Shown here: positions 29,573 to 48,718 of the stretch, piece after piece
Position numbering within the stretch: the first letter of the stretch is position 1
Layout of the letters: every line of letters starts with the position of its first letter
DNA from: a virus
Strand: one strand, 5' to 3'
Length of the DNA: 51,466 nt
IMG/VR virus record: IMGVR_UViG_3300021090_000029
Location: 1-51,466 of that record
The notes under the pieces: generated by a model
Seen by the model: the letters and a program-made list of their open reading frames with translations, nothing else
What the model was told of the DNA's origin: nothing
The model's database searches: none
Translations under genes and position numbers: made by a program

Positions 29573-31256
29573 ATATAACCGCAACCAGATAATCCGCGAA
29601 TTTTTTTCCCGCCTCTCTATCGAAGATCAGAAGGAATGGCTCATCCACCGCCGGGCCTGTGATCAATCCCTGTTCTTTTTTATCAAAGAAATGGGGGCCT
29701 TCATGAAGGGCGGGGGCGGGGACTCAAGCCTTTTCATACATCGCCCAATCTGTGACAGGTGGCAAAACCCAGACACATATAGACAGGCCGTCCATATGCC
29801 ACGGGCATGGAGAAAGACGACCTGTTTAACCATCTGGGGGAATATCTGGGAGTATCTTCAGAACAACGAAATCCGGATTCTTGTGCCGTCCGAGAAGCAA
29901 GACACGGCGGCGAAATGGATTAAGCAGATAGGGACATTGGTCTTGAATCATCGTCGCCTAAGGTGGATATACCCGGAACTCCTTTTCATAGACAACGAAT
30001 ACATCCGAACGCATAGGTGGTCGGGGTATCAGATTGACATGCCCAGGGTGGGGTTTTACCCGGACCCTACGATCGAGTGTGTGGGGATTCGTGGCGCGGC
30101 CCAGGGCGGGCACTACGATCTCGTCTCTGCGGATGACCTCGTAGGCGAGAAGGGCTTTGAGTCGGCCATCGTCATGGAAGATGCAAAGCGGTGGTTGGAT
30201 AACGTGGAAGAACTCCTGGACGACCCGTCATTCAGGCCCGGTGCATCGCGCATCCGCATCTTAGGAACTCATTGGAGCCCCTCCGATATCGGAACATACA
30301 TTCAAGACCGCTACCCGGAGTTTGCTTTTTTCATCGTCCCCTGCCGCAAAGATTCAAAGCTTCAGCGTGATCCGAAGAAGCCGGAACAAGTCACGTATAT
30401 CAATAACCCGCTGTCGGAAGAGAGCGAGTCCAACTTTCCGGAAGCCTTCCCCACGGAGCACTATATCAAGATGCTGGCGAACCCCGAAAAGGAAATTCAG
30501 TATTGGTCTCAGCACATGAATGTCCCTTCCGGTGGTTCTATCTTCACTAAGTTTGACTATGCCTGGATCAGGTGGTATCACTTTGAAGACCGTCCGGCTT
30601 TATCTGACCCATCTCGCACGGAGAAATGGATTGTCTGCGATGACGGGAAAGAGTTTAGGGTTAATGACATTCCCCTCTACGGGATGATTGATCCCGGCGG
30701 GCTGGCAGAGAAGTGGACCTCTAAGGGGGCTTCCAGGAACGCCATGCTGGTCGGCGGGCAACCATCCGACAGTTATAGGAAGTTCGTTGTGGCAACGTGG
30801 GCCAAGAGAATCAAACAGCCGTCTGACTTCAAGGACGAGCTATGGAGGTTGGACGCAATTTGGCACCCAAGATGGAAGGTGGAAATCTTCGGTCAGCAAG
30901 CCTACATTTATAGGGACATCCTAGAGGAAAAGAAGAAGCGGGGGTCTGGTATTAGGGTGTCATCACTAGAGGCGGACAACCAAAAGAATGCGAAAGAGGC
31001 CAGGATTGACGCACTCAAAGAGCCCATGGCAAACGGGGAGATTTACCTACACAAGTCCATGAAGGATTTAATAGGCGAGATTCAGACATACCCCGGCGGG
31101 TTAACTAAGGATTTAGTTGATATGTTGGGGGCGATCAATAAGCATCATTGGACGAGACAAAAGCCTGGGGATTTATTGAAGCAGAATGCTTTTAGGCCGA
31201 GGGTTTCCGACGACGAGGACGCCTATGACGAGCGGTCTATTTTGACGGGGTATTAG
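29562..31256 (+). CDS. terL: Terminase large subunit
   Basis: A 564-residue protein starting at TTG with GGAG 8 nt upstream. The ATPase part has a deviant Walker A (RAWRKTT, residues 81-87), Walker B ending in SADD (189-192) and a coupling motif ILGTHWSPSD (233-242). The nuclease part begins with a YGMIDPGG strand (D377). It packages DNA into the procapsid through the portal. It is unusual in lying at the far end of the late block rather than beside the portal gene, and in lacking an obvious small subunit next to it. Its 3' end overlaps a leftward gene. Confidence 0.85.
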   Translation: MELEYNRNQIIREFFSRLSIEDQKEWLIHRRACDQSLFFFIKEMGAFMKGGGGDSSLFIHRPICDRWQNPDTYRQAVHMPRAWRKTTCLTIWGNIWEYLQNNEIRILVPSEKQDTAAKWIKQIGTLVLNHRRLRWIYPELLFIDNEYIRTHRWSGYQIDMPRVGFYPDPTIECVGIRGAAQGGHYDLVSADDLVGEKGFESAIVMEDAKRWLDNVEELLDDPSFRPGASRIRILGTHWSPSDIGTYIQDRYPEFAFFIVPCRKDSKLQRDPKKPEQVTYINNPLSEESESNFPEAFPTEHYIKMLANPEKEIQYWSQHMNVPSGGSIFTKFDYAWIRWYHFEDRPALSDPSRTEKWIVCDDGKEFRVNDIPLYGMIDPGGLAEKWTSKGASRNAMLVGGQPSDSYRKFVVATWAKRIKQPSDFKDELWRLDAIWHPRWKVEIFGQQAYIYRDILEEKKKRGSGIRVSSLEADNQKNAKEARIDALKEPMANGEIYLHKSMKDLIGEIQTYPGGLTKDLVDMLGAINKHHWTRQKPGDLLKQNAFRPRVSDDEDAYDERSILTGY

Positions 31257-31454
31257 TCCACGTGATATCTTGGGCCGTAACAAAATAATGGGTCCGCCTA
31301 AAAAACCAATTACATATCCAGAACCCCAACGACTAATGACAACCGCACATTCTGAAGCATGGAGTGTAGAAATGGCCGGGTCGGTAACTTGCACTCGGTC
31401 GCCAACTTCAAACCCTACCAACTCATCGGCTATTGAATGGGACAGTTTACTCAC
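31173..31454 (-). CDS. MSxLS/GDxV family paralogue 1
   Basis: A 93-residue protein; GTG at 31454 gives the family start VSKLSHSIADELVG and follows GGAG. EVGDRV lies at about residues 16-21, then a small beta body (CAVVISRWGSGYVIGFLGG). The start overlaps the stop of paralogue 2 (GTGA). The last 84 bp are antisense to the end of terminase, a convergent overlap. It is the final gene of the leftward block and its C-terminal 35 residues match no other member. Confidence 0.65.
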   Translation of the reverse strand: MSKLSHSIADELVGFEVGDRVQVTDPAISTLHASECAVVISRWGSGYVIGFLGGPIILLRPKISRGLIPRQNRPLVIGVLVVGNPRPKSILLQ

Positions 31455-31699
31455 GCAAGCTCCAATTCGTATTGAAAAAACCATTCCCTATCCGTTGCGT
31501 GTTTACAATCCGGAAAAGCGACCCAAACCACAGGCTCAAGATGAACCACAGTCTCAAGGTAAGGATAAGTCTGCCTTATCTGTCCCCGCCTTCCCCGGAA
31601 GTGGCCCCTCTCTGTCAGCGCATTGGGTCCAATGATTACGAAGTCGCCTACCTGGAATCCTATTAGATCGGAGGCGACAGAGCGGGATAGTTTACTCAT
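31451..31699 (-). CDS. MSxLS/GDxV family paralogue 2
   Basis: An 82-residue protein beginning MSKLSRSVASDLIGFQVGDF. A beta-rich body (HLEPVVWVAFPDCKH) follows and it ends in the family tail YELELA. The start sequence ATGAGTAA overlaps the stop of paralogue 3 by 8 bp. It is the middle of three tandem members (31.2-31.9 kb), which suggests local duplication followed by divergence of everything except the N-terminus. Confidence 0.7.
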   Translation of the reverse strand: MSKLSRSVASDLIGFQVGDFVIIGPNALTERGHFRGRRGQIRQTYPYLETVVHLEPVVWVAFPDCKHATDREWFFQYELELA

Positions 31700-31916
31700 C
31701 TAGTAACTCTATGCTTGACTCATACACATACCACGATTCTCCAGTAAAGTCGCTGATTACCCTGGCCTCACGTCCCCCCCCCGGCCAGAAACCGCCCCTC
31801 GCGGCTACGGTCCCAGTTATAAATGGAGGACATGGGGTATCCCGAATATATTTAACCCTGTCGCCAATCTTGAATCCAACCAGATCAACTGCAACAGACC
31901 GGGACAGTTTACTCAA
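31692..31916 (-). CDS. MSxLS/GDxV family paralogue 3
   Basis: A 74-residue protein that starts at TTG (31914-31916), giving MSKLSRSVAVDLVGFKIGDR. An ITGTVAARG strand and the end VYESSIELLDE follow the KOW/SH3-like order of the family. The start overlaps the upstream stop by 4 bp (TTGA). The TTG start implies lower translation than its ATG relatives. Confidence 0.7.
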   Translation of the reverse strand: MSKLSRSVAVDLVGFKIGDRVKYIRDTPCPPFITGTVAARGGFWPGGGREARVISDFTGESWYVYESSIELLDE

Positions 31917-32497
31917 AACACAAACCGCTTCATCCGCTCATCCAGATCGTCCTCAGCGGCCCCTGGCTCTTCCTTTGTTTCAGGCAGTTCCATGACGATC
32001 TTTCTTTCTTCCTTAGTTTCCTCCGCCCCGGAGATTTTGTCAAGGGCCTGGACTACCCTAGGGACCAGCGGCAAGGCGATCAGCGCCTGTTCGTAGAAGG
32101 ACAACCTTTTCGGCCCGGTCCTCCCCTTGGCCATCCTAAACGTAGGCTTCCTTACGGGGTTCCCGTTTTCGTCTTTATAGATATCGCAGACACAGACCGC
32201 GACATCTTGCCCCCCGGATTCCTGTGCCGTGTTGACGACCACGGGGAATACGGCCTTTCCGAAGTCCCCTTCCCAGATACAGGTTGCTCTTTCCCCTGCG
32301 CGGGACATCATTTCGGCCATCCATTTGTGCTGATTGGACTGCCTCCATCTCTCTAAATTGGCGAGTCCCCTGAGTCTGGCCTTCTCTTTCCTGATCGCCT
32401 GTTTTTCCTCTAGGGTGGCCCCCAATTCAGCGGACGGACCTGAGCCAGGGAGGAGTTTCCTCCTTTTGGAGAGCGGGCTAGGAACACCTGAAGGCAT
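31913..32497 (-). CDS. Hypothetical protein
   Basis: A 194-residue protein. The N-terminus is basic and Pro-rich (PLSKRRKLLPGSGP), a helix follows at residues 28-70, then a beta region with GDFGKAVFPVVVNTAQESGG near residue 80, and an acidic C-terminal tail. It lies next to the family paralogues with a 4-bp overlap. It could be a DNA-binding or packaging protein, but I do not recognise a family. Confidence 0.6.
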   Translation of the reverse strand: MPSGVPSPLSKRRKLLPGSGPSAELGATLEEKQAIRKEKARLRGLANLERWRQSNQHKWMAEMMSRAGERATCIWEGDFGKAVFPVVVNTAQESGGQDVAVCVCDIYKDENGNPVRKPTFRMAKGRTGPKRLSFYEQALIALPLVPRVVQALDKISGAEETKEERKIVMELPETKEEPGAAEDDLDERMKRFVF

Positions 32498-32499
32498 GG

Positions 32500-32739
32500 T
32501 TACTTCTTATTTCGCGGAGTATTCATCCGGTCTTCCAGATAATCAATCCTTTCCGACTGAGCCGTAACAATGTTCAGTAGTTGTGCCATCTCGGTCGAAA
32601 GGCTCACCAGGACATTGGACAGGTCTCTAACCATATAGAGGATATCCGTATGGTCCTTTTCAATGTATTCAATGGTTCGGTCGAGGCGCGCGATTTGCGC
32701 CCGCGACTGTCGAATCTGTCTGCCATAAAAGATGCTCAT
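32500..32739 (-). CDS. Coiled-coil protein
   Basis: A 79-residue protein that is one continuous coiled coil (AQIARLDRTIEYIEKDHTDI then LSNVLVSLSTEMAQLLNIVT). The start overlaps the stop of paralogue 4 as ATGA. It probably oligomerises; the partner is unknown. Confidence 0.65.
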   Translation of the reverse strand: MSIFYGRQIRQSRAQIARLDRTIEYIEKDHTDILYMVRDLSNVLVSLSTEMAQLLNIVTAQSERIDYLEDRMNTPRNKK

Positions 32740-32996
32740 TCTTTGTCTCCTATAACTTCGTATTCACCGGGCCAAAGATACCAATAAAATCCTGGCCTTG
32801 CTCCGTCTTTGTTCCAGCCGACCTTATTTTTGAGTTTTATGGTTATGTACCCGTGGCCAACCTCAGTAACAATCCCCCCTCTAGACCCCCCAATGCAATG
32901 TTGCCACATACCAAGGACCCTCGGAGTCGGGCGCACGCGATCCCCTACCTGTGGCCCGATCAGTTCCGCGCTAACGGCCCTGGACAACTTGCTCAT
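32736..32996 (-). CDS. MSxLS/GDxV family paralogue 4
   Basis: An 86-residue protein; ATG at 32996 overlaps the stop of the HNH-like gene as ATGA. QVGDRV is followed by GGIVTEVGHGYITIKLKNKV and a distinctive DGARPGFYWYLWPGEYEVI end. A 58-bp stretch of this gene is identical apart from one base to paralogue 14, so these two are the most recent duplicates although 14.4 kb apart. Confidence 0.75.
   Translation of the reverse strand: MSKLSRAVSAELIGPQVGDRVRPTPRVLGMWQHCIGGSRGGIVTEVGHGYITIKLKNKVGWNKDGARPGFYWYLWPGEYEVIGDKE
32791..32848 (-). repeat. 58-bp repeat shared with 47163-47220
   Basis: The bases match 47163-47220 with a single mismatch and lie inside paralogue 4; the partner lies inside paralogue 14. 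Similarity continues at lower level through the rest of the two genes. It shows recent duplication or gene conversion within the family. Confidence 0.85.
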
Positions 32997-33274
32997 TTTT
33001 TCAAATACTCCGCCCATGCTCTCACGCTCATGGTAGCCACGGCCAGACTAAACATGACCGGGCCAAGTCCCTTGCCGTAAGCTTTGGCCCATGGATCGTG
33101 AAATTGTTTCCCGGTCCCATGGAGCCTCCCGTGGCACATGGCACAAATAGCGACTTCGATTTCCGGCTCATAACAGACGTGATGGTTCATATACTTATTT
33201 CGGTTCCCGCCCAGATGAGAACAGACGGGGCACTTATTCTGCTTCTTCGGCATATTGGACAATTTTATACTCAT
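32993..33274 (-). CDS. HNH/zinc-finger-like protein
   Basis: A 93-residue protein with CPVCSHLGGN, then an NHHVCYEPEIEVAICAMCHG block and a LHG; the two CxxC pairs around a histidine motif are typical of HNH nucleases and related treble-clef fingers. It probably binds or nicks DNA. The start is uncertain: ATG at 33274 gives MSIKLSN, a possible decayed family N-terminus, while ATG at 33253 gives MPKKQNK. Neither has a clear ribosome binding site; the gene overlaps the end of paralogue 5. Confidence 0.6.
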   Translation of the reverse strand: MSIKLSNMPKKQNKCPVCSHLGGNRNKYMNHHVCYEPEIEVAICAMCHGRLHGTGKQFHDPWAKAYGKGLGPVMFSLAVATMSVRAWAEYLKK

Positions 33275-33503
33275 CACTCAGGAAGAACCAGCCACCGGGG
33301 CGCCCGTCCATGTTCCGGCCCTTTCCTGCCTTCCTTGTCCGCACAGAAATATCCCCATCCGAGTAAATTCTAATCACCTTAAACCGGGCGCGTGTTACCT
33401 TACTTCCCCACCGCCGAATTCCCGCCTCGGTCGCCATAACCACGTCTCCGAGACGGACGCCCCCAACAAGCGATTCGGCCACGGCGCGGGACAGTTTACT
33501 CAT
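33234..33503 (-). CDS. MSxLS/GDxV family paralogue 5
   Basis: An 89-residue protein starting MSKLSRAVAESLVGG, with RLGDVV and then a basic beta body (SKVTRARFKVIRIYSDGDIS). It ends with DGRPGGWFFLSDEYKIV, a variant of the DGARPGxxWxLWPGEYEVI tail of paralogues 4 and 14. The start sequence ATGAGTAA overlaps the upstream stop by 8 bp. Confidence 0.7.
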   Translation of the reverse strand: MSKLSRAVAESLVGGVRLGDVVMATEAGIRRWGSKVTRARFKVIRIYSDGDISVRTRKAGKGRNMDGRPGGWFFLSDEYKIVQYAEEAE

Positions 33504-33672
33504 GTCTGTTCTGTATGTCAATAATCAGCATTATAGCACAGGCCAATATAAGAAAGCAAATGGCCGTCATCCTGTGCCAAGTCTCCTGTGCCACCGCGAA
33601 GTTCAAGAAGGCAAACACGAAGGCGACGACCGCAAAGACAATGGCCAGGGATTGCTTTAAATCCTTGCTCAC
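33496..33672 (-). CDS. Small two-segment membrane protein
   Basis: A 58-residue ORF starting at GTG with two hydrophobic helices (SLAIVFAVVAFVFAFLNFAV and MTAICFLILACAIMLII). It ends inside the start of paralogue 5 (ATGAGTAA) and begins on the stop of the next upstream small gene (GTGA). Function unknown; it could be a phage inner-membrane or superinfection-exclusion peptide. Confidence 0.6.
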   Translation of the reverse strand: MSKDLKQSLAIVFAVVAFVFAFLNFAVAQETWHRMTAICFLILACAIMLIIDIQNRHE

Positions 33673-33770
33673 TTATGCCTCTTAACCAATTCAGCCAAGG
33701 CCCAAAAGAGCATCCCTCCAAGGATAACGATAGCCCCGATAAGGCACCAATCCAAAGTGCTTAAATTCAC
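33669..33770 (-). CDS. Single-pass membrane micropeptide
   Basis: A 33-residue ORF starting at GTG with a textbook AAAGGAGG 4 nt upstream. One hydrophobic helix (WCLIGAIVILGGMLFWALA) is followed by a basic tail (VKRHK). Both ends overlap neighbours as GTGA. The strong ribosome binding site and overlaps support it as real despite its size. Confidence 0.6.
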   Translation of the reverse strand: MNLSTLDWCLIGAIVILGGMLFWALAELVKRHK

Positions 33771-34024
33771 TTGTCCTCCTTTCTTTCCCCAATGGTCTCC
33801 CTTAGCCAATTCAAATAAACGCTAGTCTTCTCTAAGTCTTTCCCCGGCTCCCCCTTAAACGGGAACCTACAGACGTATTGGATTAAACTTCCCCATAAAA
33901 ACCCCTGCCAGGGGGTGACGGGCATAGAGCTTAGCTTGGCTTTAATGAAGTCAATAAGCTCTATTCCACCCGCCGTGTAATGGGCCGGGTGAAGCACCTG
34001 ATCGGCTCCCCAATCACTTCTCAT
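33767..34024 (-). CDS. DUF3310-like protein
   Basis: An 85-residue protein with GGAG 7 nt upstream of ATG at 34024. The pattern LHPAHYTAGGIELIDFIKA, then QGFLWGSLIQYVCRF and DLEKTSVYLNWL, matches the small phage DUF3310 (SaV-like) family. That family is often found in nucleotide-metabolism neighbourhoods and has no firm function. The neighbour at 34370 is DUF4406-like. Confidence 0.75.
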   Translation of the reverse strand: MRSDWGADQVLHPAHYTAGGIELIDFIKAKLSSMPVTPWQGFLWGSLIQYVCRFPFKGEPGKDLEKTSVYLNWLRETIGERKEDK

Positions 34025-34370
34025 GTTTGTTCTCCATGTTCGGCTCCTCCCCAAGCAAATACACGGGCATCCCTAATTCAATAGCCCGCGACCGTTCAAT
34101 ACAACTGCCCTCCGAACACTCCCAATTCGGCATCATCACTATGATATCACACCTGGAAATAATTTCCAAGTCCCCGGCCATGAAATCCTCATGGGAAAGA
34201 TCGTCGCCCTCCATGAAGATATTATTCGTATGGGGACAGATAACCGCATAGCCCTTCTTCCAAAGACCACGGGCGGCGGCACGGGCTGAGCAGATGTTCT
34301 CCCATACGTCATTCGCCCCCGGCCCCCTATACGGCCCGGCAAGATAAGCCAAAGATAATCTTTTATTCAT
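34014..34370 (-). CDS. DUF4406-like deoxyribosyltransferase-fold protein
   Basis: A 118-residue protein of the DUF4406 / nucleoside 2-deoxyribosyltransferase-like family: YLAGPYRGPGANDVWENI at the start, GYAVICPHTNNIF in the middle, then CDIIVMMPNWECSEGS with the family E residue. Such proteins are thought to act on nucleotide or nucleoside substrates. Its C-terminus overlaps the DUF3310 gene by 11 bp. Confidence 0.75.
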   Translation of the reverse strand: MNKRLSLAYLAGPYRGPGANDVWENICSARAAARGLWKKGYAVICPHTNNIFMEGDDLSHEDFMAGDLEIISRCDIIVMMPNWECSEGSCIERSRAIELGMPVYLLGEEPNMENKHEK

Positions 34371-34605
34371 TGGTTACAACCACAAAGCCCTTCCCGTTGT
34401 TCACGTATCCACGAGGCAAATCACTCCACCCACTAACCCAATCCTCATGTTTAAACTCGGCCCAAACTTTTATCCCGTCTATTTTCACTATTCGCCCAAC
34501 GGCCCCTGGGCGCACTATCCGTGGGTATAAAGAAGTTGTGACGTAATCACCAATATGAAATTCTCCGGTAAGATCATGGGCTATTTTGTGAGATAGTTTA
34601 CTCAT
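34363..34605 (-). CDS. MSxLS/GDxV family paralogue 6
   Basis: An 80-residue protein starting MSKLSHKIAHDLTGEFHIGD. It has a clear KOW-like AVGRIVKIDGIKVWAEF strand pair. The end differs from the ELEL tail of other members (GKGFVVVTNE). The start overlaps the upstream stop as ATGA. It lies between DUF4406 and a small helical protein, near no replication gene except the exonuclease two genes upstream. Confidence 0.7.
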   Translation of the reverse strand: MSKLSHKIAHDLTGEFHIGDYVTTSLYPRIVRPGAVGRIVKIDGIKVWAEFKHEDWVSGWSDLPRGYVNNGKGFVVVTNE

Positions 34606-34874
34606 ATTTTCTCCGCAAAAACCGACCCGTTCTCCATTATCTTCTTGTCCTCATACGGCGCAACCTTAACCCTATACCACTCGCTTGCCGCACAGGAAAG
34701 AACGCCCATGATCTCATTGTGGATTTCATAGGCTTCTGTAAACTGATTGAAAAAGGTGTCGCACAGGTTGGCAATGAGGTAGTGAAGCTCCCCGGCCGTC
34801 TCCGGGGGGGAGTCTTCCATCGCCGCGACGAGGCTTCTGAATTGCTCCCGATCCGTCTTGTTAATGTAGGGCAT
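34602..34874 (-). CDS. Small helical protein
   Basis: A 90-residue protein with AGGAGGACCA upstream. It has the MPYINKTDREQFRSLV opening, a helical middle (AGELHYLIANLCDTFFNQFT) and a basic end. It resembles the DUF6899-type small phage proteins that start MPYI, of unknown function, often near nucleotide-metabolism genes. Confidence 0.65.
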   Translation of the reverse strand: MPYINKTDREQFRSLVAAMEDSPPETAGELHYLIANLCDTFFNQFTEAYEIHNEIMGVLSCAASEWYRVKVAPYEDKKIMENGSVFAEKI

Positions 34875-34882
34875 TGGTCCTC

Positions 34883-35554
34883 CTAGATAGACGTTTTAGT
34901 AAGTCTGCCGAAGCCCTGGAGCCGCTTCCAAACCTGCTCCAACGAAGTCACGTCTTCCTGACAATGTTTTAGAATCCAATCCAGGCTCTTGCTGTCACCA
35001 GCCTGGGCCTTCTGCCAAATGTCCGGATTCAACCTGTGCGCCTTAGACGGGATTTCAAGCAAATCACACGCCACCTCTAGCCGGTTCCGATGTAATCTCA
35101 TCTTCTTCTTGACATAGTCATAGCAGTCCGTAAAGAAGTTATCCCCGTATTCAGGAAAGTCGGCCCCCCATTTCAAGGCGCGAGTCCGAAGAAACGGCAC
35201 GTCGAATCTCCCGTTGGAACTGTAGTAGCCGATGAGTCGGTCATACTTTTGCGCCGCTTCGTAAAACTCGTGGACAAGTCTTTCGTCGAATTTGTGGGTT
35301 CTGATTTCGCGGGGAGTAATACAATGCGATTCAATTTTGTCCCCGTCCGGCTTAATGCACCAGCACAGCATGTACCCGAACGATGCGTTAAGATTGGTGG
35401 TCTCAATGTCCAGGAACCCAACGGTCTCTTTAGGACGGTCCTTGACTTCCCGGTCATAGCATCTGGGGTGCTGAAGATAAGCGACGTGGTGTTTACACCT
35501 GTGTTGCGCCATCCAAAGGATGTCGTCTTTCGGAAGTTTTGCGATGTTCAACAA
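34883..35554 (-). CDS. DnaQ-like 3'-5' exonuclease
   Basis: A 223-residue protein starting at TTG with AAAGGA upstream (a second TTG follows at once). RNase-H-fold exonuclease motifs are in order: D49-x-E51 in GFLDIETTN, NGRFDVPFL in the middle, and HCQEDVTSLEQVW near residue 205. It resembles the YprB/RNase_H_2 type. It would trim or degrade DNA or RNA 3' ends during replication or recombination. An N-terminal extension with Cys/His residues (HRCKHH, HPRCYD) may bind metal. Confidence 0.7.
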   Translation of the reverse strand: MLNIAKLPKDDILWMAQHRCKHHVAYLQHPRCYDREVKDRPKETVGFLDIETTNLNASFGYMLCWCIKPDGDKIESHCITPREIRTHKFDERLVHEFYEAAQKYDRLIGYYSSNGRFDVPFLRTRALKWGADFPEYGDNFFTDCYDYVKKKMRLHRNRLEVACDLLEIPSKAHRLNPDIWQKAQAGDSKSLDWILKHCQEDVTSLEQVWKRLQGFGRLTKTSI

Positions 35555-35694
35555 TTGTTCCTTTCAAACGGATCGTTTCCATAGTAAGCATCGTCACGTT
35601 CAATCATCGGTTGGGGCGGGCGCTGACTCCAACTGAGCCTCCCCCCGAGCGCGGCCCAAAATAGAGTAAACGCTAGGCGTAGACGGTCAATCAT
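35548..35694 (-). CDS. Small protein with hydrophobic N-terminus
   Basis: A 48-residue ORF whose ATG overlaps the glycosidase-like gene stop (ATGA) and whose end overlaps the exonuclease start. The N-terminal half is hydrophobic (LRLAFTLFWAALGGRL) and the C-terminal half polar (RDDAYYGNDPFERNNC). It fills an otherwise empty gap. Unknown function; possibly membrane-bound. Confidence 0.5.
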   Translation of the reverse strand: MIDRLRLAFTLFWAALGGRLSWSQRPPQPMIERDDAYYGNDPFERNNC

Positions 35695-36761: not shown

Positions 36762-36778
36762 TCTTTTCTCCTTCGCGC

Positions 36779-38204: not shown

Positions 38205-38518
38205 TTCTTCCCCTCCCACTCATCGAGGGCGGCGCGGAGTGCGTCTCGATCTTGACGATAAACCTGCCAAATCATGTATTTCATGCGTTCGTCGTCCATC
38301 TCCACGCCAGAGTCATCCAACATGTCCTTAGCCGCCTCCGCCAATTTCTCGGCGGCGTCGAGGCTGGAGAGGAGGCGGAGGATGGAGTCGGCGCGGGCCA
38401 AGCGTTCTTCCTCATTGGATACATCTTCACACCACGCGCTCAGCTTCGCACTCATCACACAATAGCGCCGTTCCTCTTCCGCCCACTCTCTCAGCGCGTT
38501 CCGGTCAGCGGGGGTCAT
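38201..38518 (-). CDS. Helical acidic protein
   Basis: A 105-residue protein rich in Ala, Glu, Asp and Arg and largely helical (SILRLLSSLDAAEKLAEAAK, then QDRDALRAALDEW). It resembles Ead/Ea22-type phage accessory proteins in composition. The tail EWEGKK doubles as the ribosome binding site of the downstream gene, with a GTGA overlap. Confidence 0.55.
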   Translation of the reverse strand: MTPADRNALREWAEEERRYCVMSAKLSAWCEDVSNEEERLARADSILRLLSSLDAAEKLAEAAKDMLDDSGVEMDDERMKYMIWQVYRQDRDALRAALDEWEGKK

Positions 38519-38784
38519 GGCTTCGGCTCCTTCTCCTCCTCCGCCTCGGTCCCTTCCGGCGCGTCCTCCACTTCCACGCCGAGGGAGTTGGCGGAATAAT
38601 CTACGATGATGCCCCAGGATTCCAAGATGGTCGCTATAGGGATTTCGGGACTCCCCCCCATGCTGGCGGCCAAAAGAGCCGCCTTAAACGCCCCCGCCAA
38701 CGAAGCCAGGGGTATCGCCCTCGGCTTCTCGCCCCGCTCCACCACCCACCCCTTGATTTCTTTCGCCTTTTTCGTCTTGGCCAT
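38515..38784 (-). CDS. KTKK-leader protein, copy 2
   Basis: An 89-residue protein beginning MAKTKKAKEIKGWVVERG, with GGAG 7 nt upstream. The first 16 residues match the product at 39796 (MTKTKK...) but the bodies are unrelated: this one is an Ala-rich helix with a very acidic tail (EDAPEGTEAEEEKEPKP). The shared 5' part is inside an 88-bp direct repeat. It is an example of leader reuse with a new body. Confidence 0.6.
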   Translation of the reverse strand: MAKTKKAKEIKGWVVERGEKPRAIPLASLAGAFKAALLAASMGGSPEIPIATILESWGIIVDYSANSLGVEVEDAPEGTEAEEEKEPKP

Positions 38785-38824
38785 GCTTATTCTCCGTTCT
38801 CCTCCCGGCACTTGGCGGGGCGGA
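38737..38824 (-). repeat. 88-bp direct repeat, copy 2
   Basis: Identical to 39749-39836 except one base (C at 38781, T at 39793), with a period of 1012 bp. It covers the end of a Cys-rich gene (RPAKCREENGE), the intergenic ribosome binding site and the start of a KTKK gene. It marks a duplicated two-gene cassette. Confidence 0.9.
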
Positions 38825-38963
38825 CGGCCCGAGCCCCGCCCATAGTGTCGAGAACAATCTCAAGGGCACGGCAATACGGCTGACGGAAAAACGGATGATG
38901 CCAATATAGGCACGGACACACGTCGCAGTATCGCGGATCGGGGAGGTTGATTGTGAGAATCAT
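38787..38963 (-). CDS. Small Cys-rich protein, copy 2
   Basis: A 58-residue protein; ATG at 38963 keeps the AGGAG-N7 spacing seen in its paralogue. It begins MILTINLPDPRYCDVCPC and ends RPAKCREENGE, with five Cys or more that could bind zinc. It is paralogous to the product at 39799 and is followed in both places by a KTKK gene. The middle differs strongly between copies. Confidence 0.6.
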   Translation of the reverse strand: MILTINLPDPRYCDVCPCLYWHHPFFRQPYCRALEIVLDTMGGARAVRPAKCREENGE

Positions 38964-38979
38964 GGTCATGCTCCTTCCC

Positions 38980-39520: not shown

Positions 39521-39796
39521 TCATTCCTCCACGATGAGAGTAGCGCGACGGATACGGTAAACGTTATAATCGGACGCCTGGAATCGCTCTTCAAAGGCGG
39601 CTTTCACCGCGAGCGCGTCCGATCGGGTTCTGAAAAAAAGATGCCCAAACGGAAGTCCCGCCCGAGACGCTGTCGGGTATCCCATGATTAGTCCGGCGGC
39701 CGACGGGCCGCAGCGCCGGAGGCTTGGGACCATATCGGGACCGCCCCACTCCACCACCCACCCCTTGATTTCTTTCGCCTTTTTCGTCTTGGTCAT
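39521..39796 (-). CDS. KTKK-leader protein, copy 1
   Basis: A 91-residue protein beginning MTKTKKAKEIKGWVVEWG with GGAG 7 nt upstream. The body differs from copy 2: GYPTASRAGLPFGHLFFRTR and SDALAVKAAFEERF suggest a small alpha/beta domain. It is preceded by the paralogous Cys-rich gene at 39996. Function unknown. Confidence 0.6.
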   Translation of the reverse strand: MTKTKKAKEIKGWVVEWGGPDMVPSLRRCGPSAAGLIMGYPTASRAGLPFGHLFFRTRSDALAVKAAFEERFQASDYNVYRIRRATLIVEE

Positions 39797-39836
39797 GCTT
39801 ATTCTCCGTTCTCCTCCCGGCACTTGGCGGGGCGGA
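39749..39836 (-). repeat. 88-bp direct repeat, copy 1
   Basis: Partner of 38737-38824 with one mismatch. It spans the junction between the Cys-rich gene and the KTKK gene, so what was duplicated (or kept identical) is the gene boundary rather than a whole gene. Confidence 0.9.
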
Positions 39837-39996
39837 GAATATATATTCTCCCATCGTCCGTGGCGTAGATATCTTCGTCCATGTCGCTCCAATACTGCAT
39901 GGCACACCAGGTCTCGTCCTCGTTCCCGTTGTCGCCTTGCTTGCACGGGCACCCGTCGCAGTATCGCGGATCGGGGAGGGTGATTGTGATGTGCAT
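39799..39996 (-). CDS. Small Cys-rich protein, copy 1
   Basis: A 65-residue protein with AGGAG 7 nt upstream: MHITITLPDPRYCDGCPC at the start and RPAKCREENGE at the end, as in copy 2. The middle is acidic (YWSDMDEDIYATDDG). Four Cys suggest a small zinc-binding fold. Function unknown. Confidence 0.6.
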   Translation of the reverse strand: MHITITLPDPRYCDGCPCKQGDNGNEDETWCAMQYWSDMDEDIYATDDGRIYILRPAKCREENGE

Positions 39997-39998
39997 GG

Positions 39999-40627: not shown

Positions 40628-40815
40628 GGCTTCTCTCCCTTCGCGCGTCGTTCCGCTTCGATGCAAGCGGGGATGCGACGGCCGGTTTTCACGTCGTCAC
40701 TGAAAAGACCACAGATACCAAGTCCATTGACCTGCCCGGCATAGTCTGGGGAAAAATATGCGCATCTGCCGCACTTATCCACCGCGCAATCAATCGAGAT
40801 CAGGATGTTGGTCAT
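40624..40815 (-). CDS. Small Cys-rich protein
   Basis: A 63-residue protein, first gene of the unit driven by the promoter at 40834-40862. ATG at 40815 keeps AGGAG-N7 spacing (an in-frame ATG at 40821 is too close). CAVDKCGRCAYF, GICGLF and PACIEAE give five or six Cys in a zinc-finger-like order. The tail AKGEKP encodes the next ribosome binding site. Confidence 0.6.
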   Translation of the reverse strand: MTNILISIDCAVDKCGRCAYFSPDYAGQVNGLGICGLFSDDVKTGRRIPACIEAERRAKGEKP

Positions 40816-40817
40816 AA

Positions 40818-41297: not shown

Positions 41298-41304
41298 TCG
41301 TAAA

Positions 41305-41532
41305 TTACTCCTCCGGTTCTAGTTCACTAAGAAAAAAGCAACAGTATCCCCCGCCCCCCATGACTGCGACGGGAACCCCGTCAAATGACAGATATAAACG
41401 CGTGATTGTTCCCGTTTTTCCTGGCCTAATACCAGAGATAAGGCTTGCATAGTCTGGCCGGGCAACAATGACCCTATCCCCCACCTGAAATCCTGTTAGA
41501 CTCTTGGCGATCTCTCTGGAAAGATCGCTCAT
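41305..41532 (-). CDS. MSxLS/GDxV family paralogue 7
   Basis: A 75-residue protein starting MSDLSREIAKSLTGFQVGDR. KTGTITRLYL forms the KOW-like GxxGxI strand and the end is FLSELEPEE. The start overlaps paralogue 8 (ATGA). It is directly upstream of the XRE regulator gene. It has Asp instead of Lys at residue 3. Confidence 0.7.
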   Translation of the reverse strand: MSDLSREIAKSLTGFQVGDRVIVARPDYASLISGIRPGKTGTITRLYLSFDGVPVAVMGGGGYCCFFLSELEPEE

Positions 41533-41765
41533 GGTTCCACTACGAGTTTAAATAAAGAAGCCTCATATCGGTAAGTCTTGCCCCCTTCTATAATGACAAC
41601 CCTTCCGTTTCCTGCCCCCGCAACGGTCGCCGCGCCAAATTTCCTCATCGCATGACACGCCACGCAGTCGCAGTTCTTCCCCATCTCGGGGTCAACAAAC
41701 TCCACTAGGTCTCCGACCTGAAACCCGGTCAAGTCCGATGCCACGGCCCTGGATAACTTACTCAC
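41529..41765 (-). CDS. MSxLS/GDxV family paralogue 8
   Basis: A 78-residue protein starting MSKLSRAVASDLTGFQVGDL. The body has an inserted Cys cluster (NCDCVACHAM) that looks like a metal site, then AATVAGAGNGRVVIIEGG. The start overlaps the stop of the primase-helicase gene as ATGA, so the two proteins are made together. Confidence 0.7.
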   Translation of the reverse strand: MSKLSRAVASDLTGFQVGDLVEFVDPEMGKNCDCVACHAMRKFGAATVAGAGNGRVVIIEGGKTYRYEASLFKLVVEP

Positions 41766-43378: not shown

Positions 43379-43388
43379 TCAAAACTCT

Positions 43389-43661
43389 TTAAATCAGCAC
43401 GATTGAAGACGCATCACAATACCAATGTCCGCATATCGCACGGCCCCTTCCTTTGTGTCCTTTTCCTTTCCTTTTCAATGCCGGGAAATACACTAACCAC
43501 TCATATTCCGTATCGGGCGCTACGATCTTTCCCCGCATGCCGAACATGTCGTCATCAACGCCTTGAACGTGTCCGTATCGGCTAGGCCGGACATACTTGA
43601 CGCGGTCCCCGACCTGAAAACCTGTCAGGTTCGAGGCCACGGACCTGGATAACTTACTCAC
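43389..43661 (-). CDS. MSxLS/GDxV family paralogue 9
   Basis: A 90-residue protein starting MSKLSRSVASNLTGFQVGDR. It has KIVAPDTEYEWLVYFPALKR and an end with ICGHWYCDASSIVLI. A basic insertion (KRKGKGHKGRGR) could bind nucleic acid. The start overlaps the stop of the HNH gene as ATGA, and the gene ends 10 bp before the primase-helicase start. Confidence 0.7.
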   Translation of the reverse strand: MSKLSRSVASNLTGFQVGDRVKYVRPSRYGHVQGVDDDMFGMRGKIVAPDTEYEWLVYFPALKRKGKGHKGRGRAICGHWYCDASSIVLI

Positions 43662-44347
43662 CTTTTGTCCTCCGGTATAAGATTATACCAGAAATCAAAA
43701 AGATTGACACGGTTATCCCACAGCCAATCCTTTCCCTCCGAGTGCTGTTCCGTATGGCACTTCCTACAAAGAGGGATCACCTTATACTCATCCGTCCCCG
43801 CGCCCTTCGTTCTCGGGAAATGGGCTGGATCAGACGGCTCATCCCCGCACGCTGCGCAAGCATGTGCCTTGACGTATTCCTTCCACGTTTTACACTTGTC
43901 AAGATTAATCTCGATCGGCCTTGTCCGCCCCGTCCCGCGAACCTTCCCCACCTCCGTCGCCAGATCAGAGCGGCTAAGCTCCTTGGCCTTTCCTAACCAT
44001 TCCTCGGGATTAGACTCGACCAGGGGAGCGATTAGCTGAAGTCGGCGCGTCCCGATTTCGATTAATCTCTCGGTTGGAATCTTTAGTTTCTGAACGTAGA
44101 GTTCGTATTGGTGTATAAGATTATAAACGGTGGATCGCTTCGCCGCAATTTGCGGGTCTGCCAAGTATTCATCGAAAGTTTCCCAACCTAAGAGTTTGTA
44201 ATACGAACGGTCGCGGCACTCTTTATAGAGTCCCGCCAAAATGAATACGGACCTACCTGCTTCTTTTTGGGTAGAGATAATTTCTTCTCTGTTCGAGTGC
44301 GCCAGACTAACTGTTATGTCGATGTTTTTGATTACTGCATTTGTCAT
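43658..44347 (-). CDS. HNH nuclease with N-terminal helical domain
   Basis: A 229-residue protein; ATG at 44347 has GGGAG 5 nt upstream and starts MTNAVIKNIDITVSL. Residues 20-150 are helical (FILAGLYKECRDRSYYKLLG; SRSDLATEVGKVRG-like) and resemble phage DNA-binding regions. Residues 165-215 are an HNH motif: CAACGDEPSDPAHFPRTKG, then VIPLCRKCHTEQHS. It likely nicks or cuts DNA at the phage origin or in recombination. Longer in-frame starts would overlap paralogue 10 heavily. Confidence 0.75.
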   Translation of the reverse strand: MTNAVIKNIDITVSLAHSNREEIISTQKEAGRSVFILAGLYKECRDRSYYKLLGWETFDEYLADPQIAAKRSTVYNLIHQYELYVQKLKIPTERLIEIGTRRLQLIAPLVESNPEEWLGKAKELSRSDLATEVGKVRGTGRTRPIEINLDKCKTWKEYVKAHACAACGDEPSDPAHFPRTKGAGTDEYKVIPLCRKCHTEQHSEGKDWLWDNRVNLFDFWYNLIPEDKR

Positions 44348-44366
44348 AGTAACTCCCATTCCGATG

Positions 44367-44612
44367 TCATAGTAACTCCAATTCCGAAAGAGAAAAACCC
44401 AGACGCGTAGTCGGGATATCCATCTTGACCCCATGGTATATTTCAATTGGTAAATCGAGGCGCACGCGAACCATACCCAACTCCGAAACGAAATCAACGG
44501 TGCCTTGCAAATTAGACATCTCCGGCCAATCGTCAATGGCCCCTGTTTTAACTCGGTCCCCAACAACAAAAATTGTCAATTCTTCAGCTATACGTCGAGA
44601 TAGACGGCTCAT
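44367..44612 (-). CDS. MSxLS/GDxV family paralogue 10
   Basis: An 81-residue protein starting MSRLSRRIAEELTIFVVGDR; the usual Gly at residue 14 is Ile. QGTVDFVSELGMVRVRLD is a clear KOW/SH3-like strand pair and it ends SLSELELL. The start overlaps paralogue 11 (ATGA). It is the last of three tandem members after the Cas4-like nuclease. Confidence 0.75.
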   Translation of the reverse strand: MSRLSRRIAEELTIFVVGDRVKTGAIDDWPEMSNLQGTVDFVSELGMVRVRLDLPIEIYHGVKMDIPTTRLGFSLSELELL

Positions 44613-44821
44613 AACAACTCCAATTCAGACGGCAAGAACGGAACTGTGCTTAAAATGTCGAGAAAAACATACCCCAGGCTCGAAATTAGAACTATGACCC
44701 CTTCGGTTCCGGCCTCGATTCCCCACGCTAGCGACGCTCTATCCGGCCAAGCTACCCGGACCGTATCTCCAACACCAAGACCGACCAGATCACGAGACAC
44801 CCGCTTGGATAGCCCGCTCAT
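44609..44821 (-). CDS. MSxLS/GDxV family paralogue 11
   Basis: A 70-residue protein; ATG at 44821 overlaps paralogue 12 and starts MSGLSKRVSRDLVGLGVGDT. It has a TEGVIVLISSLGYVFLDIL strand pair and ends LPSELELL, almost the same tail as paralogue 10. It is the shortest member and gives a good idea of the minimal fold: one helix plus about five strands. Confidence 0.75.
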   Translation of the reverse strand: MSGLSKRVSRDLVGLGVGDTVRVAWPDRASLAWGIEAGTEGVIVLISSLGYVFLDILSTVPFLPSELELL

Positions 44822-45036
44822 ATCAATTCCAATTCTTTCGCAGATAAGGCCCACCGCTCTTCTTTCGGTCTAACGTCGAACCTGACCAAATAAAAACCCG
44901 AAAGCGGGTGGGACGGTCCCAATACGGTCCCAATTTGTCCGCAAATACTGTCAGCCGGGACGTTGACTGCCATTACTCTGTCCCCTGATTGAAGACCAGC
45001 CAGGGCAACAGCGACCCGACTAGATAATTTACTCAT
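44818..45036 (-). CDS. MSxLS/GDxV family paralogue 12
   Basis: A 72-residue protein starting MSKLSSRVAVALAGLQSGDR. IGTVLGPSHPLSGFYLVRFD is the KOW-like part and the end is LSAKELELI. The start shares one base with the stop of the Cas4-like nuclease (TAATG). It opens the triple tandem at 44.4-45.0 kb. Confidence 0.75.
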   Translation of the reverse strand: MSKLSSRVAVALAGLQSGDRVMAVNVPADSICGQIGTVLGPSHPLSGFYLVRFDVRPKEERWALSAKELELI

Positions 45037-45938
45037 TATCTTTCAAGGCGCTCTAGTTGTTCTATGAGATTAAAGTCTTTTCTATTACCATTACTCTCCT
45101 TCCATTCCTTGTGTTGCGGGCAAACGTCCCGGACCTGACAATAAGACAGACATTTCATCGGTACATTTGGAATAAGCACTTTAAACTTCCAATTCTTAAT
45201 ATCACGAAACCACCTGTCCTTCACCCCGCACGTCCCGACTTTCAAGGGATCGCGCTCCGATTCTAAGAATTGGGCCAACCGTTCCGTAACGGCGTCCCTG
45301 ACTTTTTCGTCCTCGAATTTTGGCACGTCAATTCTTTCGATGGGCAGGACCCCATCTTCAAGCAGACTCGCCGGGGACCAATCCTTCAACTGAAATTCCA
45401 GCGTCATTTTTTCGGCCGGAAATCCGTAAACCCGATATGTATTCAACTGCCAAAAATAATCTTCGTCATCCCCGCCTTCACGCAACTTCTTTATTTGGTA
45501 TACTTTACCCGTCTTGTAATCCGTGATCTCGCTGTCTGTTTTGCTGTATTTGTCCACCCTCCCGGTTAGCGTCGCTTTCCCCGCCCGGGTTAAAATCTCG
45601 ACGGAGAAAGAAGCTTCCCTAACGGCGTCTTCGACATAGCCATGCGTATCGAATTTCCCGGGCTCGCCTTCCAAGATAGCGTGTAGCCCGCTTCCCAGGG
45701 ACATCGCGGCCATGGAATACGGGCTAACAAAGAAGTCTCGATTGCGGGCTAAGTAAACCTGCTGAACCGTCTTTCGCAGTTCGGTAACATGATAGATTCG
45801 CGGCTCGGGGATTCTGTCGGAATGCATAGCCAGCAACATATCTACAGTCATACATCGCCTCGGTTTGGCCGGGCAACCCTTTAGACAGTATTCGATCTTG
45901 ACGTTCCCGAAGCCAAGCGGACACGCAAAACCCATCAT
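45036..45938 (-). CDS. Cas4/RecB-like PD-(D/E)XK nuclease
   Basis: A 300-residue protein. Nuclease motifs are in order: GLHAILEGE (H86), GRVDKY (D129), EITDYKTGK (D140, K142), and Q164-x3-Y168. Cys residues at 6, 18, 22 and 29 and a C-terminal C-x3-C-x5-C (CLSYCQVRDVC) could hold an iron-sulfur cluster as in Cas4/AddB-type exonucleases. It probably resects DNA ends in recombination or replication. It lies beside an OB-like protein, typical of phage recombination modules, with paralogue 12 coupled downstream. Confidence 0.8.
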   Translation of the reverse strand: MMGFACPLGFGNVKIEYCLKGCPAKPRRCMTVDMLLAMHSDRIPEPRIYHVTELRKTVQQVYLARNRDFFVSPYSMAAMSLGSGLHAILEGEPGKFDTHGYVEDAVREASFSVEILTRAGKATLTGRVDKYSKTDSEITDYKTGKVYQIKKLREGGDDEDYFWQLNTYRVYGFPAEKMTLEFQLKDWSPASLLEDGVLPIERIDVPKFEDEKVRDAVTERLAQFLESERDPLKVGTCGVKDRWFRDIKNWKFKVLIPNVPMKCLSYCQVRDVCPQHKEWKESNGNRKDFNLIEQLERLER

Positions 45939-46457
45939 TTATTCCACCGGATTCAGCGTGTGATAATACTCTTTTAACAAGGCGTCCCCGAAATACGCAA
46001 CCACCTCGATAAAGTCTTGCTTCTTGGAGTCTAGTTCCTCCAGCGTCATCCCCTCAGCGACCTTGGCGAACAACGGCACGGAGATTTCCCCGGCGATCTT
46101 AAACATGGTCTGGAGAATAATCTCCCTCCGTTCGTCGGGTGACTTTTGCTGACGCGGCTTAAATCCGGGCGCGGCAACGGGATTATTGTCTTGGGCTCCG
46201 GCTTCCCGGTCCTGCCTTGCGATAGCCAGGAGATTAGCAAATGTCCCGGTTGCGGTTTGTTTCTCCGCATACGTTGCCTCTACCGTATCTCCAACCTTGA
46301 CCCCCTGGAGTTCCACGAAGGCAGGATTCCCGGAAACGCCGTCGCCGCCTTTGATAGTTTCCCAGGCCCTGATCTTCTTCCCGCCAACGGTAACATCCTT
46401 AAATCCGTCGCCGGGGTAAACACGATCCAACCGTCCGGTCAATTTCTTGACGTCCAT
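45939..46457 (-). CDS. OB-fold-like DNA-binding protein candidate
   Basis: A 172-residue protein; ATG at 46457 has GAGGAGGA upstream, while longer starts run into the previous gene. Residues 1-85 look like an OB barrel (MDVKKLTGRLDRVYPGDGFK; GVKVGDTVEATYAEK), a basic linker follows (PGFKPRQQKSPDERR), then a helical end. With the adjacent Cas4-like nuclease it suggests an ssDNA-binding or recombination factor. No known single-strand-binding family is certain. Confidence 0.55.
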   Translation of the reverse strand: MDVKKLTGRLDRVYPGDGFKDVTVGGKKIRAWETIKGGDGVSGNPAFVELQGVKVGDTVEATYAEKQTATGTFANLLAIARQDREAGAQDNNPVAAPGFKPRQQKSPDERREIILQTMFKIAGEISVPLFAKVAEGMTLEELDSKKQDFIEVVAYFGDALLKEYYHTLNPVE

Positions 46458-46473
46458 AAAATCCTCCTCGATA

Positions 46474-46797
46474 CTAATTATTTCCGGGTTTAAAAACACC
46501 CGGTTCATGGCAGAAAGGACATTCGCAATCATCTCCCTGTCTTCCCGGCCGCAACCGGGCGGGAGACTGTCCATCCGGATAGACATTAGTAGCCCTTTCA
46601 AAGGTGGCCGTCATTTCGCGCCGCCTGAATTCCTCGATGTCTTCCTCAGGGATAGTCCGGTTATGGACCTCAAGGTTTGAGGAATAAATAATGTTCGCGA
46701 CCTCCGTAGGGCTCCACAACCTATCCGGATCAACATGATCCAACCATTCCTTAAAATCATCTTGAGTCAGGATGCCGGGGATTAATGGTTCTTTCAT
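46474..46797 (-). CDS. Small protein with zinc-knuckle-like end
   Basis: A 107-residue protein, first gene after the promoter at 46806-46834. The N-terminal 45 residues look like a DNA-binding or helix-turn-helix-like fold (LTQDDFKEWLDHVDPDRLWS, then PTEVANIIYSS). The C-terminus has CECPFCHEPG, a single zinc-knuckle-like motif. It may be a regulator of the recombination genes downstream. Confidence 0.6.
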   Translation of the reverse strand: MKEPLIPGILTQDDFKEWLDHVDPDRLWSPTEVANIIYSSNLEVHNRTIPEEDIEEFRRREMTATFERATNVYPDGQSPARLRPGRQGDDCECPFCHEPGVFKPGNN

Positions 46798-46805
46798 GAT
46801 ATTTT

Positions 46806-46834
46806 ATCCTAACATTATTTTTAGCGGTTGTCAA
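46806..46834 (-). promoter_or_regulatory. Leftward sigma70 promoter
   Basis: On the - strand: TTGACA (46829-46834), 17-bp spacer, TAGGAT (46806-46811), the same box pair as the rightward promoter at 872-900. It lies between paralogue 13 and the gene starting at 46797, and would drive the recombination/replication unit. Confidence 0.75.
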
Positions 46835-47111
46835 GCGATTTCTTTCTTTTCTGCTCGATAAGCTTTAGGCGACTTTCTGGCTGGCAAAAGACACCGTTGC
46901 AGTATTTTGCCGTTGCCTCCTTATCCCACGTAACCCACACACTATTTGCCTCGACTGCCCCCCAATAAGGGTGTACTCCGTATCCCCATACCGTTCCCGC
47001 ATCTCCCTTCTTCAGCCCACAATGGAACTCTGTTTTGTCTTTAATCATAACCCTATCGCCTGGAGCGAATCCGATAAGTCCAGAGGCAATCCGCCTAGAT
47101 AGACTGCTCAT
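46821..47111 (-). CDS. MSxLS/GDxV family paralogue 13
   Basis: A 96-residue protein, the longest member, starting MSSLSRRIASGLIGFAPGDR. DAGTVWGYGVHPYWGAVEAN and a CNGVFCQPESRLKLIEQ end differ from relatives, with a basic tail (KRKKSLDNR). Its 3' end overlaps the -35 box of the promoter at 46829-46834. The start overlaps paralogue 14 as ATGA. Confidence 0.7.
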   Translation of the reverse strand: MSSLSRRIASGLIGFAPGDRVMIKDKTEFHCGLKKGDAGTVWGYGVHPYWGAVEANSVWVTWDKEATAKYCNGVFCQPESRLKLIEQKRKKSLDNR

Positions 47112-47371
47112 TCATCCTCCGTAATGACTTCGTATTCACCCGGCCAAAGACACCAAGAAACTCCTGGCCTTGCTCCGTCTTTGTTCCAGCCGACCTTATT
47201 TTTGAGTTTAATGGTTATGTCCCCGTCCGGACCAACCTCAGTAACAATCCCCCCTCTGGTCCGTCTAAGATAATCCCCCCACACGACAATACCTCTCTGG
47301 GTCAAACAAACGCGATCCCCGACCTGCGGCCCGATCAGGCTACCGGCAATCCGCCTAGATAATTTACTCAT
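47108..47371 (-). CDS. MSxLS/GDxV family paralogue 14
   Basis: An 87-residue protein starting MSKLSRRIAGSLIGPQVGDR. GGIVTEVGPDGDITIKLKNK and the DGARPGVSWCLWPGEYEVI tail match paralogue 4 nearly exactly, and DNA identity over 58 bp is 57/58. The start overlaps the VWA gene stop through ATGAGTAA (8 bp). Confidence 0.75.
   Translation of the reverse strand: MSKLSRRIAGSLIGPQVGDRVCLTQRGIVVWGDYLRRTRGGIVTEVGPDGDITIKLKNKVGWNKDGARPGVSWCLWPGEYEVITEDE
47163..47220 (-). repeat. 58-bp repeat shared with 32791-32848
   Basis: One mismatch in 58 bp relative to the copy in paralogue 4. It is the strongest nucleotide-level evidence that members of this protein family move or recombine within the genome. Confidence 0.85.
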
Positions 47372-48470
47372 CTTGCATCCTTACCACGTCCCCAAAAGGC
47401 GGGTCTGCGTCCTTCGTCATTGTAGCCCAAATGACGGGATAATTCGGCGGCGTCTCCGGAAACTCCCCATAAAGATCGGTCAAGTAGATCAGCACTTTAG
47501 GCGGGGACTCATCACAATGAGCAAACACGGGCCGAAAGTCTGTTCCCCCGCCGCCCCTCGGCTCAAACTGCCCGGCTGACACTAACTCCCCAGGCTCAAA
47601 AGTCTGAATATGCCCTATCTCTGCGTCACACCAGATCATTTCAACGGCCGCGCCGGTTTCGTCGGCTATGGAGACGACTTCCCCGATAAATTGTTTTAGA
47701 ATGTCCCCGCAAATTGACCCAGACGTATCTATGGCCACGGTTATCTTAGACCATCCCTCCGAATAAAGGCCGGGGAAATAAAGTCCCCTGTGGATCAGCC
47801 GCCGCGATGGTTTTGTCCAAGAGTAATCTTCCTTCCTGCAACTGTCTACAAACGGCCTTAATTGGAGCCTCCAATCAATTAACGGATTTACGATTTCGTC
47901 TATGATCCGTTCCAGCCCGGCGGGCAAACTCCCCCGGCTCTTGGCCGATCGGGCGGCCTCCGCTATAACCCCCCGCATTCCCGCTTCTGTTTTTTGCGTG
48001 TCTTTACCGCCGTTGGCGTCTCGGCATGCCCCGAAATTATAAAAACCTTTGATCTTTTTGGCATGTTTGAATAGATCATCGTAAACCCTATCGACAGTCC
48101 AATCATTATCATACTTGTCGTCTAAAAGACAGCCGGGGGGTAATTCCGCCCCCTGCTTCGTAAGAATCCGGTTAATGATGTAGTCTCCGGCGATGTTCCA
48201 AAGTAGCGGATCGCGGCCGTTCCGTCTGGTAATATGAAGAAAGCAAATATGAAGGGCCTCATGCTCCAAAAAAGCCCTTATCTGATTGTCGGTGAGTTTA
48301 TCTATAAACTCCGTACCATAGCCGATAACCCGACCGTCGGTGTATCCGGTAGGCTGGCTGTTGTCCTCTTTCAAAAGCAGTCGGGTAACTAAAAGACCAT
48401 AAAAAGGTTGCCCCCCGACGGCTTTTAACAGATTGATCCTCTGTTTAACGATCCTATCATGGGCTGTCAT
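47364..48470 (-). CDS. VWA / metallopeptidase-like protein (DUF2201 type)
   Basis: A 368-residue protein; ATG at 48470 overlaps paralogue 15 (ATGA). Near the start it has HEALH (residues 70-74) and WNIAGDYIIN, the zinc-peptidase-like signature, and later VAIDTSGS (248-252), a MIDAS motif of a von Willebrand A domain, with GGGGTDFRP and YLTDLYG. It therefore joins a predicted metallopeptidase to a VWA domain. Such proteins usually work with a MoxR AAA+ ATPase, and one is encoded two genes upstream. Confidence 0.8.
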   Translation of the reverse strand: MTAHDRIVKQRINLLKAVGGQPFYGLLVTRLLLKEDNSQPTGYTDGRVIGYGTEFIDKLTDNQIRAFLEHEALHICFLHITRRNGRDPLLWNIAGDYIINRILTKQGAELPPGCLLDDKYDNDWTVDRVYDDLFKHAKKIKGFYNFGACRDANGGKDTQKTEAGMRGVIAEAARSAKSRGSLPAGLERIIDEIVNPLIDWRLQLRPFVDSCRKEDYSWTKPSRRLIHRGLYFPGLYSEGWSKITVAIDTSGSICGDILKQFIGEVVSIADETGAAVEMIWCDAEIGHIQTFEPGELVSAGQFEPRGGGGTDFRPVFAHCDESPPKVLIYLTDLYGEFPETPPNYPVIWATMTKDADPPFGDVVRMQDE

Positions 48471-48718
48471 GCTAGTCTTATGTCCTCTTTCCAACACCAA
48501 TAACCCTGACATGGGCGGGTGTGCCCGCCGCAACTGCGCAAGGTCACGCATTTCGGCCACTCAACTGCCCAACTGTTATCGCGTTGGTCAAAAAACCGAA
48601 CCACTCCACGGGTCCCTTTTTTGATAGCCATGCCACCCAAGTCCAATACAGCTATAACCTCATCGCCGGGCAATATCCCAACTAAATCCCCGGCGATTTT
48701 CCGGGATAGTTTACTCAT
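48467..48718 (-). CDS. MSxLS/GDxV family paralogue 15
   Basis: An 83-residue protein; ATG at 48718 gives MSKLSRKIAGDLVGILPGDE, with GGGG upstream (a TTG at 48730 is possible). RGVVRFFDQRDNSWAVEW is the KOW-like part, and a Cys-rich end (LRSCGGHTRPCQGYWC) suggests metal binding. It sits exactly between MoxR and its VWA partner, and is the only member that does not overlap an upstream stop. Confidence 0.7.
   Translation of the reverse strand: MSKLSRKIAGDLVGILPGDEVIAVLDLGGMAIKKGTRGVVRFFDQRDNSWAVEWPKCVTLRSCGGHTRPCQGYWCWKEDIRLA

Follow-up and report, generated by a model that had tools for sequence, protein, structure and literature searches.

A dispersed family of fifteen small proteins with a constant N-terminus and a predicted SH3/KOW-like fold in the early-type gene block of a phage genome record

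Gene content of the window and layout of the family

The window analyzed here is the whole of a 51,466-base IMG/VR virus record (IMGVR_UViG_3300021090_000029). Genome completeness is not established for this record and, because the contig is not proven complete, the 15 family copies described below are a minimum count. The rightward half of the window comprises virion genes, namely those for an SU10-type portal, a major capsid protein, and a terminase. The leftward half encodes a Prim-Pol/helicase, a PD-(D/E)XK nuclease, an HNH protein, a VWA/DUF2201 protein, a MoxR-type ATPase, an HTH protein, and numerous small genes. It is a block of replication or early-type genes of a short-tailed phage, and it is within this block that the family has been amplified.

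Several other features of the window were recorded. A Cpn10/GroES-like protein is encoded at 15146-15499 (+ strand; PF00166, E = 5e-5), and the distantly related methanogen virus vir526 also has an annotated groS, which in that virus lies close to the terminase gene. In the leftward block, the MoxR-type ATPase gene adjoins that of the DUF2201/VWA protein (47364-49735, - strand) and has relatives in 854 phage records. The same block contains a duplicated two-gene unit (38515-38969 and 39521-39996, - strand), the first gene of which encodes a Cys-rich protein (LPDPRYCDxCPC...RPAKCREENGE) and the second a protein with a constant N-terminus, M[AT]KTKKAKEIKGWVVE, and a divergent body. By eye, positions 50050-50220 hold a tandem repeat of short GACGCTTTCCC-like units, and positions 51200-51466 (- strand) hold repeats resembling a pentapeptide-repeat gene that is interrupted by the contig end.

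The 15 gene starts listed in the original prediction are all correct, and the products are 70-96 amino acids (aa) in length. The copies, all on the - strand and named here by their start positions, occupy nine sites, some of which hold one copy and others two or three in a row. Member 31454 (31173-31454; GTG start, 93 aa) has a normal N-terminus and an atypical C-terminal half in which the normal body is missing, and it overlaps the 3' end of the terminase gene. It is adjoined by members 31699 (31451-31699; 82 aa) and 31916 (31692-31916; TTG start, 74 aa). Members 32996 (32736-32996; 86 aa), 33503 (33234-33503; 89 aa), and 34605 (34363-34605; 80 aa) lie further along, the latter two with a one-residue insertion ahead of the GDxV motif. 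Member 41532 (41305-41532; 75 aa) abuts member 41765 (41529-41765; GTG start, 78 aa), which is immediately 3' of the Prim-Pol/helicase gene, and member 43661 (43389-43661; GTG start, 90 aa) lies further along. Members 44612 (44367-44612; 81 aa), 44821 (44609-44821; 70 aa), and 45036 (44818-45036; 72 aa) form a run, with 45036 immediately 3' of the PD-(D/E)XK nuclease gene, and members 47111 (46821-47111; 96 aa) and 47371 (47108-47371; 87 aa) form a pair, with 47371 immediately 3' of the VWA/DUF2201 gene. Between member 48718 (48467-48718; 83 aa) and the MoxR gene is a truncated sixteenth copy (48720-48752, - strand) that reads VSDLSRRIAG* from a GTG start, and this start overlaps the MoxR stop codon. 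The family accounts for 15 of the 46 mapped leftward genes and for 3,753 of 18,603 leftward coding bases (about 20%).

Sequence conservation and exchange among copies

The residues expected to be common to the family (MSxLS, a leucine near residue 12, and GDxV) are indeed shared, with M1, S2, L4, S5, L12, G18, D19, and V21 present in all 15 copies; G14 is present in 14, the exception being member 44612 (Ile). When profiles were built from the first 28 residues of 14 members and used to search the window for the member left out, all 15 were recovered (E = 6e-15 to 4e-8), and the top non-member was the truncated sixteenth copy (E of about 0.005). Identity between copies is 71% at codon positions 1 and 2 versus 38% at position 3, and the serine codons are fixed by class (AGY for S2 and TCY for S5 in every copy). 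This is conservation at the level of the protein and points to common descent.

The N-terminus is constant and the bodies are divergent, as had been proposed. Mean column entropy is 0.96 bits over residues 1-14 versus 2.3-2.4 bits in loops, and high entropy and most inserted residues are concentrated in the loop after strand 1 and in the region from the third strand onward. Leave-one-out profiles of the bodies by themselves fail for most members and succeed for 32996 and 47371, which are 68% identical. Body similarity is also detected between 33503 and 47371 (41% over 85 aa, E = 1e-13), and members 31916 and 43661 align over 65 aa with an E of 2e-10; since these pairwise alignments begin at residue 1, the N-terminus contributes part of the score. 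A SELEL-type tail, described earlier as frequent, is exact in only two copies (44612 and 44821, both SELELL), with several others carrying looser versions.

Similarity among the N-termini could in principle be an artefact of translation-initiation constraint on start regions alone. It does begin at the start codon, and the starts overlap upstream stops. However, third codon positions are nearly free, conservation extends to residue 21, with GDxV (residues 18-21) lying beyond the initiation region, and some of the bodies are themselves homologous. These observations contradict an origin through start-codon coupling, the probability of which we consider close to nil.

The pair 32996 and 47371, separated by 14 kb, is mosaic at the DNA level. 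Identity is 55% over codons 1-11, 90% over codons 12-21, 51% over codons 22-36, and 87% over codons 37-87, and none of 200 shuffles yielded a block as extreme. For codons 37-87, dN is 0.11 and dS is 0.25. The simplest reading of this patchiness is recombination between copies, the alternative being locally accelerated change. Members 41765 and 43661 have 10 of 11 third positions identical at their 5' ends and divergent bodies, a pattern that, allowing for the 105 pairs, no more than hints at 5' exchange. Synonymous similarity at the 5' ends did not correlate significantly with how far apart two copies lie (Mantel test, p = 0.13), and we therefore make no claim of local homogenization. Collectively, these data identify the 15 genes as a genuine family of paralogues, and we hold the family, its conservation, its duplication, and its mosaic pair, taken as one set, to be very nearly certain.

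Every copy lies behind another gene, and in 14 of the 15 its start codon shares 1, 4, or 8 bases with the end of that gene, stop codon included, so that translation of the family genes is probably coupled to that of the genes before them. About half of the non-family genes of the leftward block overlap as well, and four-base overlaps are common among them. Overlap was therefore not treated as a hallmark of the family, and its interpretation as a special mark of insertion was rejected.

Predicted fold and distribution

AlphaFold2 models of two members (41532 and 47371) agree with the KOW/SH3-like bodies that had been anticipated, in that both comprise an N-terminal helix and an SH3-like barrel. 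The model of member 41532, computed from an alignment of 14 sequences (41532 and thirteen other copies, with 31454 excluded), has a mean pLDDT of 83.7 and a pTM of 0.68, and features a helix (residues 3-13) followed by a five-strand SH3/KOW-like barrel (strands 20-23, 40-48, 54-59, 64-67, and 71-73). The model of member 47371 shares the helix, the first strand, and the succession of elements, and its barrel is weaker (pLDDT of 72). Confidence is low over the first ten residues, with means of 71 in one model and 58 in the other. The bodies are thus predicted, with good confidence, to be divergent versions of one SH3/KOW-like fold. Because the modelled bodies share one barrel, the suggestion that the constant N-terminus is carried by different effectors is unsupported.

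Foldseek matches in the PDB were SH3-like proteins, including PetP, NdhS, PsaE, KOW ribosomal proteins, Tudor domains, R67 reductase, and YorP. All E-values exceeded 0.02, those of the matches that define the fold class being 0.03 or weaker, and the fold matches therefore cannot name a function; such weak values are usual for small barrels. Many small uncharacterized phage proteins in BFVD share the barrel shape. A weak match in PDB sequence profiles to the KOW region of Spt5 (E = 0.001 over the full chain, with the best single domain not significant) spans an A-x-x-L-x-x-F-x-x-GD-x-V helix-strand segment, and a match to eL21 was likewise weak. None of the family libraries assigns the members a function: no member matched Pfam or NCBIfam above cut-off, PHROG 5785 (function not assigned in PHROG) matched one member (E = 2e-4), and a PADLOC run returned nothing meaningful.

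The family resembles known SH3-like/KOW barrels (the Spt5 KOW, eL21, the eS4 C-terminal domain, PetP, NdhS, and PsaE) in its predicted barrel, GD-x-V first strand, and G-x-x-G-x-V turn, and differs from them in having no significant family-level sequence match and in forming a 15-copy phage set. To our knowledge, the MSxLS helix is not a feature of SH3-like/KOW families. YorP of Bacillus subtilis (PDB 2heq), which is of SPbeta prophage origin, is likewise a small SH3-like protein (TM of 0.54/0.56), although identity is 12% and there is no Pfam match. Small phage SH3-like proteins also include DUF4314 (PF14192), with which one BFVD match is labelled. Membership in DUF4314 was rejected, the best score in the window being 10.8 bits (E = 0.02) against a cut-off of 27 bits, with one family member at an E of 0.24, and PF14192 had no match in phage CW02, the source of the protein that bears this label in BFVD. 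Type B dihydrofolate reductases (DfrB/R67), which form homotetramers around a central pore, share the single-domain SH3-like fold and appear in the Foldseek list, and distant DfrB homologs occur in phages (PMC9835603). Identity with DfrB was rejected, since the VQIY active-site motif is absent from all 15 members.

Relatives were sought in several collections, from which close kin of this phage may have been excluded. Scans with degenerate DNA patterns, which need exact matches and cover 12 of the 15 copies while missing three, returned no relatives in IMG/VR and three chance matches in 85,000 prokaryote genomes, none of which encodes a relative. A looser MSKLSR pattern yielded two matches in IMG/VR, one of which ends 16 codons on and the other of which is unrelated. 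Searches of 50,697 phage records by tblastn with three members gave only E > 0.5. Profile searches of the phage records behind five other loci (L009, L013, L015, L016, and L035) detected no copies versus 15 here, with L009, L015, and L016 being fragments that stop at or near the terminase gene. In the related contigs L009 and L015, the sequence stops no more than about 800 bases from the terminase gene, and at the end of both loci a leftward DPFxGSGTTGxAA gene (DNA-methyltransferase-like) stands where the family stands here. The unusual size of the family for a phage, another point of the original prediction, is borne out: under the same simple clustering, the largest paralogue cluster has 14 members here versus 0-3 in eight other phage loci, several of which are only parts of genomes. 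These observations define a lineage-specific expansion of a small domain in a phage, with many paralogues in the window and none in the searched relatives, three of which are fragments.

A literature search found no paper on this family. Bacillus phage G carries about 35 copies of a zinc ribbon in one genome (PMC7824862), and expansion of a small domain in a single phage genome is therefore not unprecedented. The fold differs in that case, the phage G genome is jumbo, and a constant N-terminal helix is not mentioned in the available part of that account. The sequence family described here is new, the fold is known, and the type of expansion has precedent; their combination is not reported in the literature found.

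A candidate shared interface and its alternatives

We propose that a family of single-domain SH3/KOW-like mini-proteins was amplified within the genome by duplication and by ectopic recombination between copies. The constant part (helix 3-13 and the GDxV first strand) would form a shared interface, through which copies may pair as homo- or hetero-oligomers or may dock on one common partner, and the variable loops and later barrel strands would bind differing host or phage ligands. We assign a probability of roughly 0.45 to this explanation as a whole, a lineage-specific amplified barrel family with a constant interface and variable binding. Its step of docking and target diversification, taken by itself, is put forward tentatively, with the odds somewhat against it. 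An intragenomic repertoire, in which segments of a variable barrel are swapped by ectopic recombination behind a constant docking helix, would be an unlikely elaboration.

The main rival is a single fold without docking, in which the helix and GDxV strand are the slowest-evolving structural part and multiple copies would raise dosage or fill overlapping roles; as with other KOW domains, these might include general binding of nucleic acids, ribosomes, or RNA polymerase. KOW-type sequences commonly show GDxV with GxxGxV after it, the helix-strand segment falls within the Spt5 match, and the helix presents a hydrophobic i, i+4, i+8 face through which L4, V/I8, and L12 could contact the barrel. 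However, that S2, S5, and L12 do not vary at all is more than the fold alone should require, given how strongly the bodies have diverged, and we consider this reading possible but rather doubtful. Selfish or neutral amplification, in which a short cassette spreads with little benefit, and a T4-like packaging signal are both less likely than the interface model and the reading without docking. The 5' end of the putative cassette is often ATGAGTAAA, with stops in both other frames, such that it could end almost any gene and restart translation. The overlaps of 1, 4, or 8 bases, the truncated remnant, the mosaic copies, and the second duplicated two-gene unit in the block are consistent with such spread, which we nonetheless judge improbable: non-family genes of the block often overlap by four bases too, purifying selection is evident on the N-terminus and on the duplicated body block, and neither a mobility gene nor a target-site signature was seen.

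The packaging alternative holds that the N-terminus might direct variable anti-defence proteins into the virion, by analogy with the T4 capsid targeting sequence, a cleaved N-terminal element that is conserved on the diverse, defence-countering bodies of T4 internal proteins (PMC3012670). A constant N-terminus on varied bodies is common to both cases, whereas the T4 proteins enter the head and the bodies here are predicted to share one fold. The family genes are interspersed with replication-type genes and run opposite to the virion genes, none of the proteins searched was recognized as a separately encoded head protease, and the predicted helix runs directly into the barrel, without an evident linker. 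Virion packaging is accordingly given very little weight.

In this phage of roughly 50 kb, about one third of the leftward genes are members of a single family for which the searched collections yielded no other member. A tiny fold that takes up about 20% of leftward coding capacity suggests either a strong benefit or an unusual mode of amplification. If copies do exchange segments as a repertoire, the phage could evolve binding to new host or rival factors with no need for a mutagenesis enzyme dedicated to that end. If one partner receives the constant helix while the barrels differ, the family would represent a compact natural scaffold for many binders and a defined test case for phage effector repertoires that arise through paralogue shuffling.
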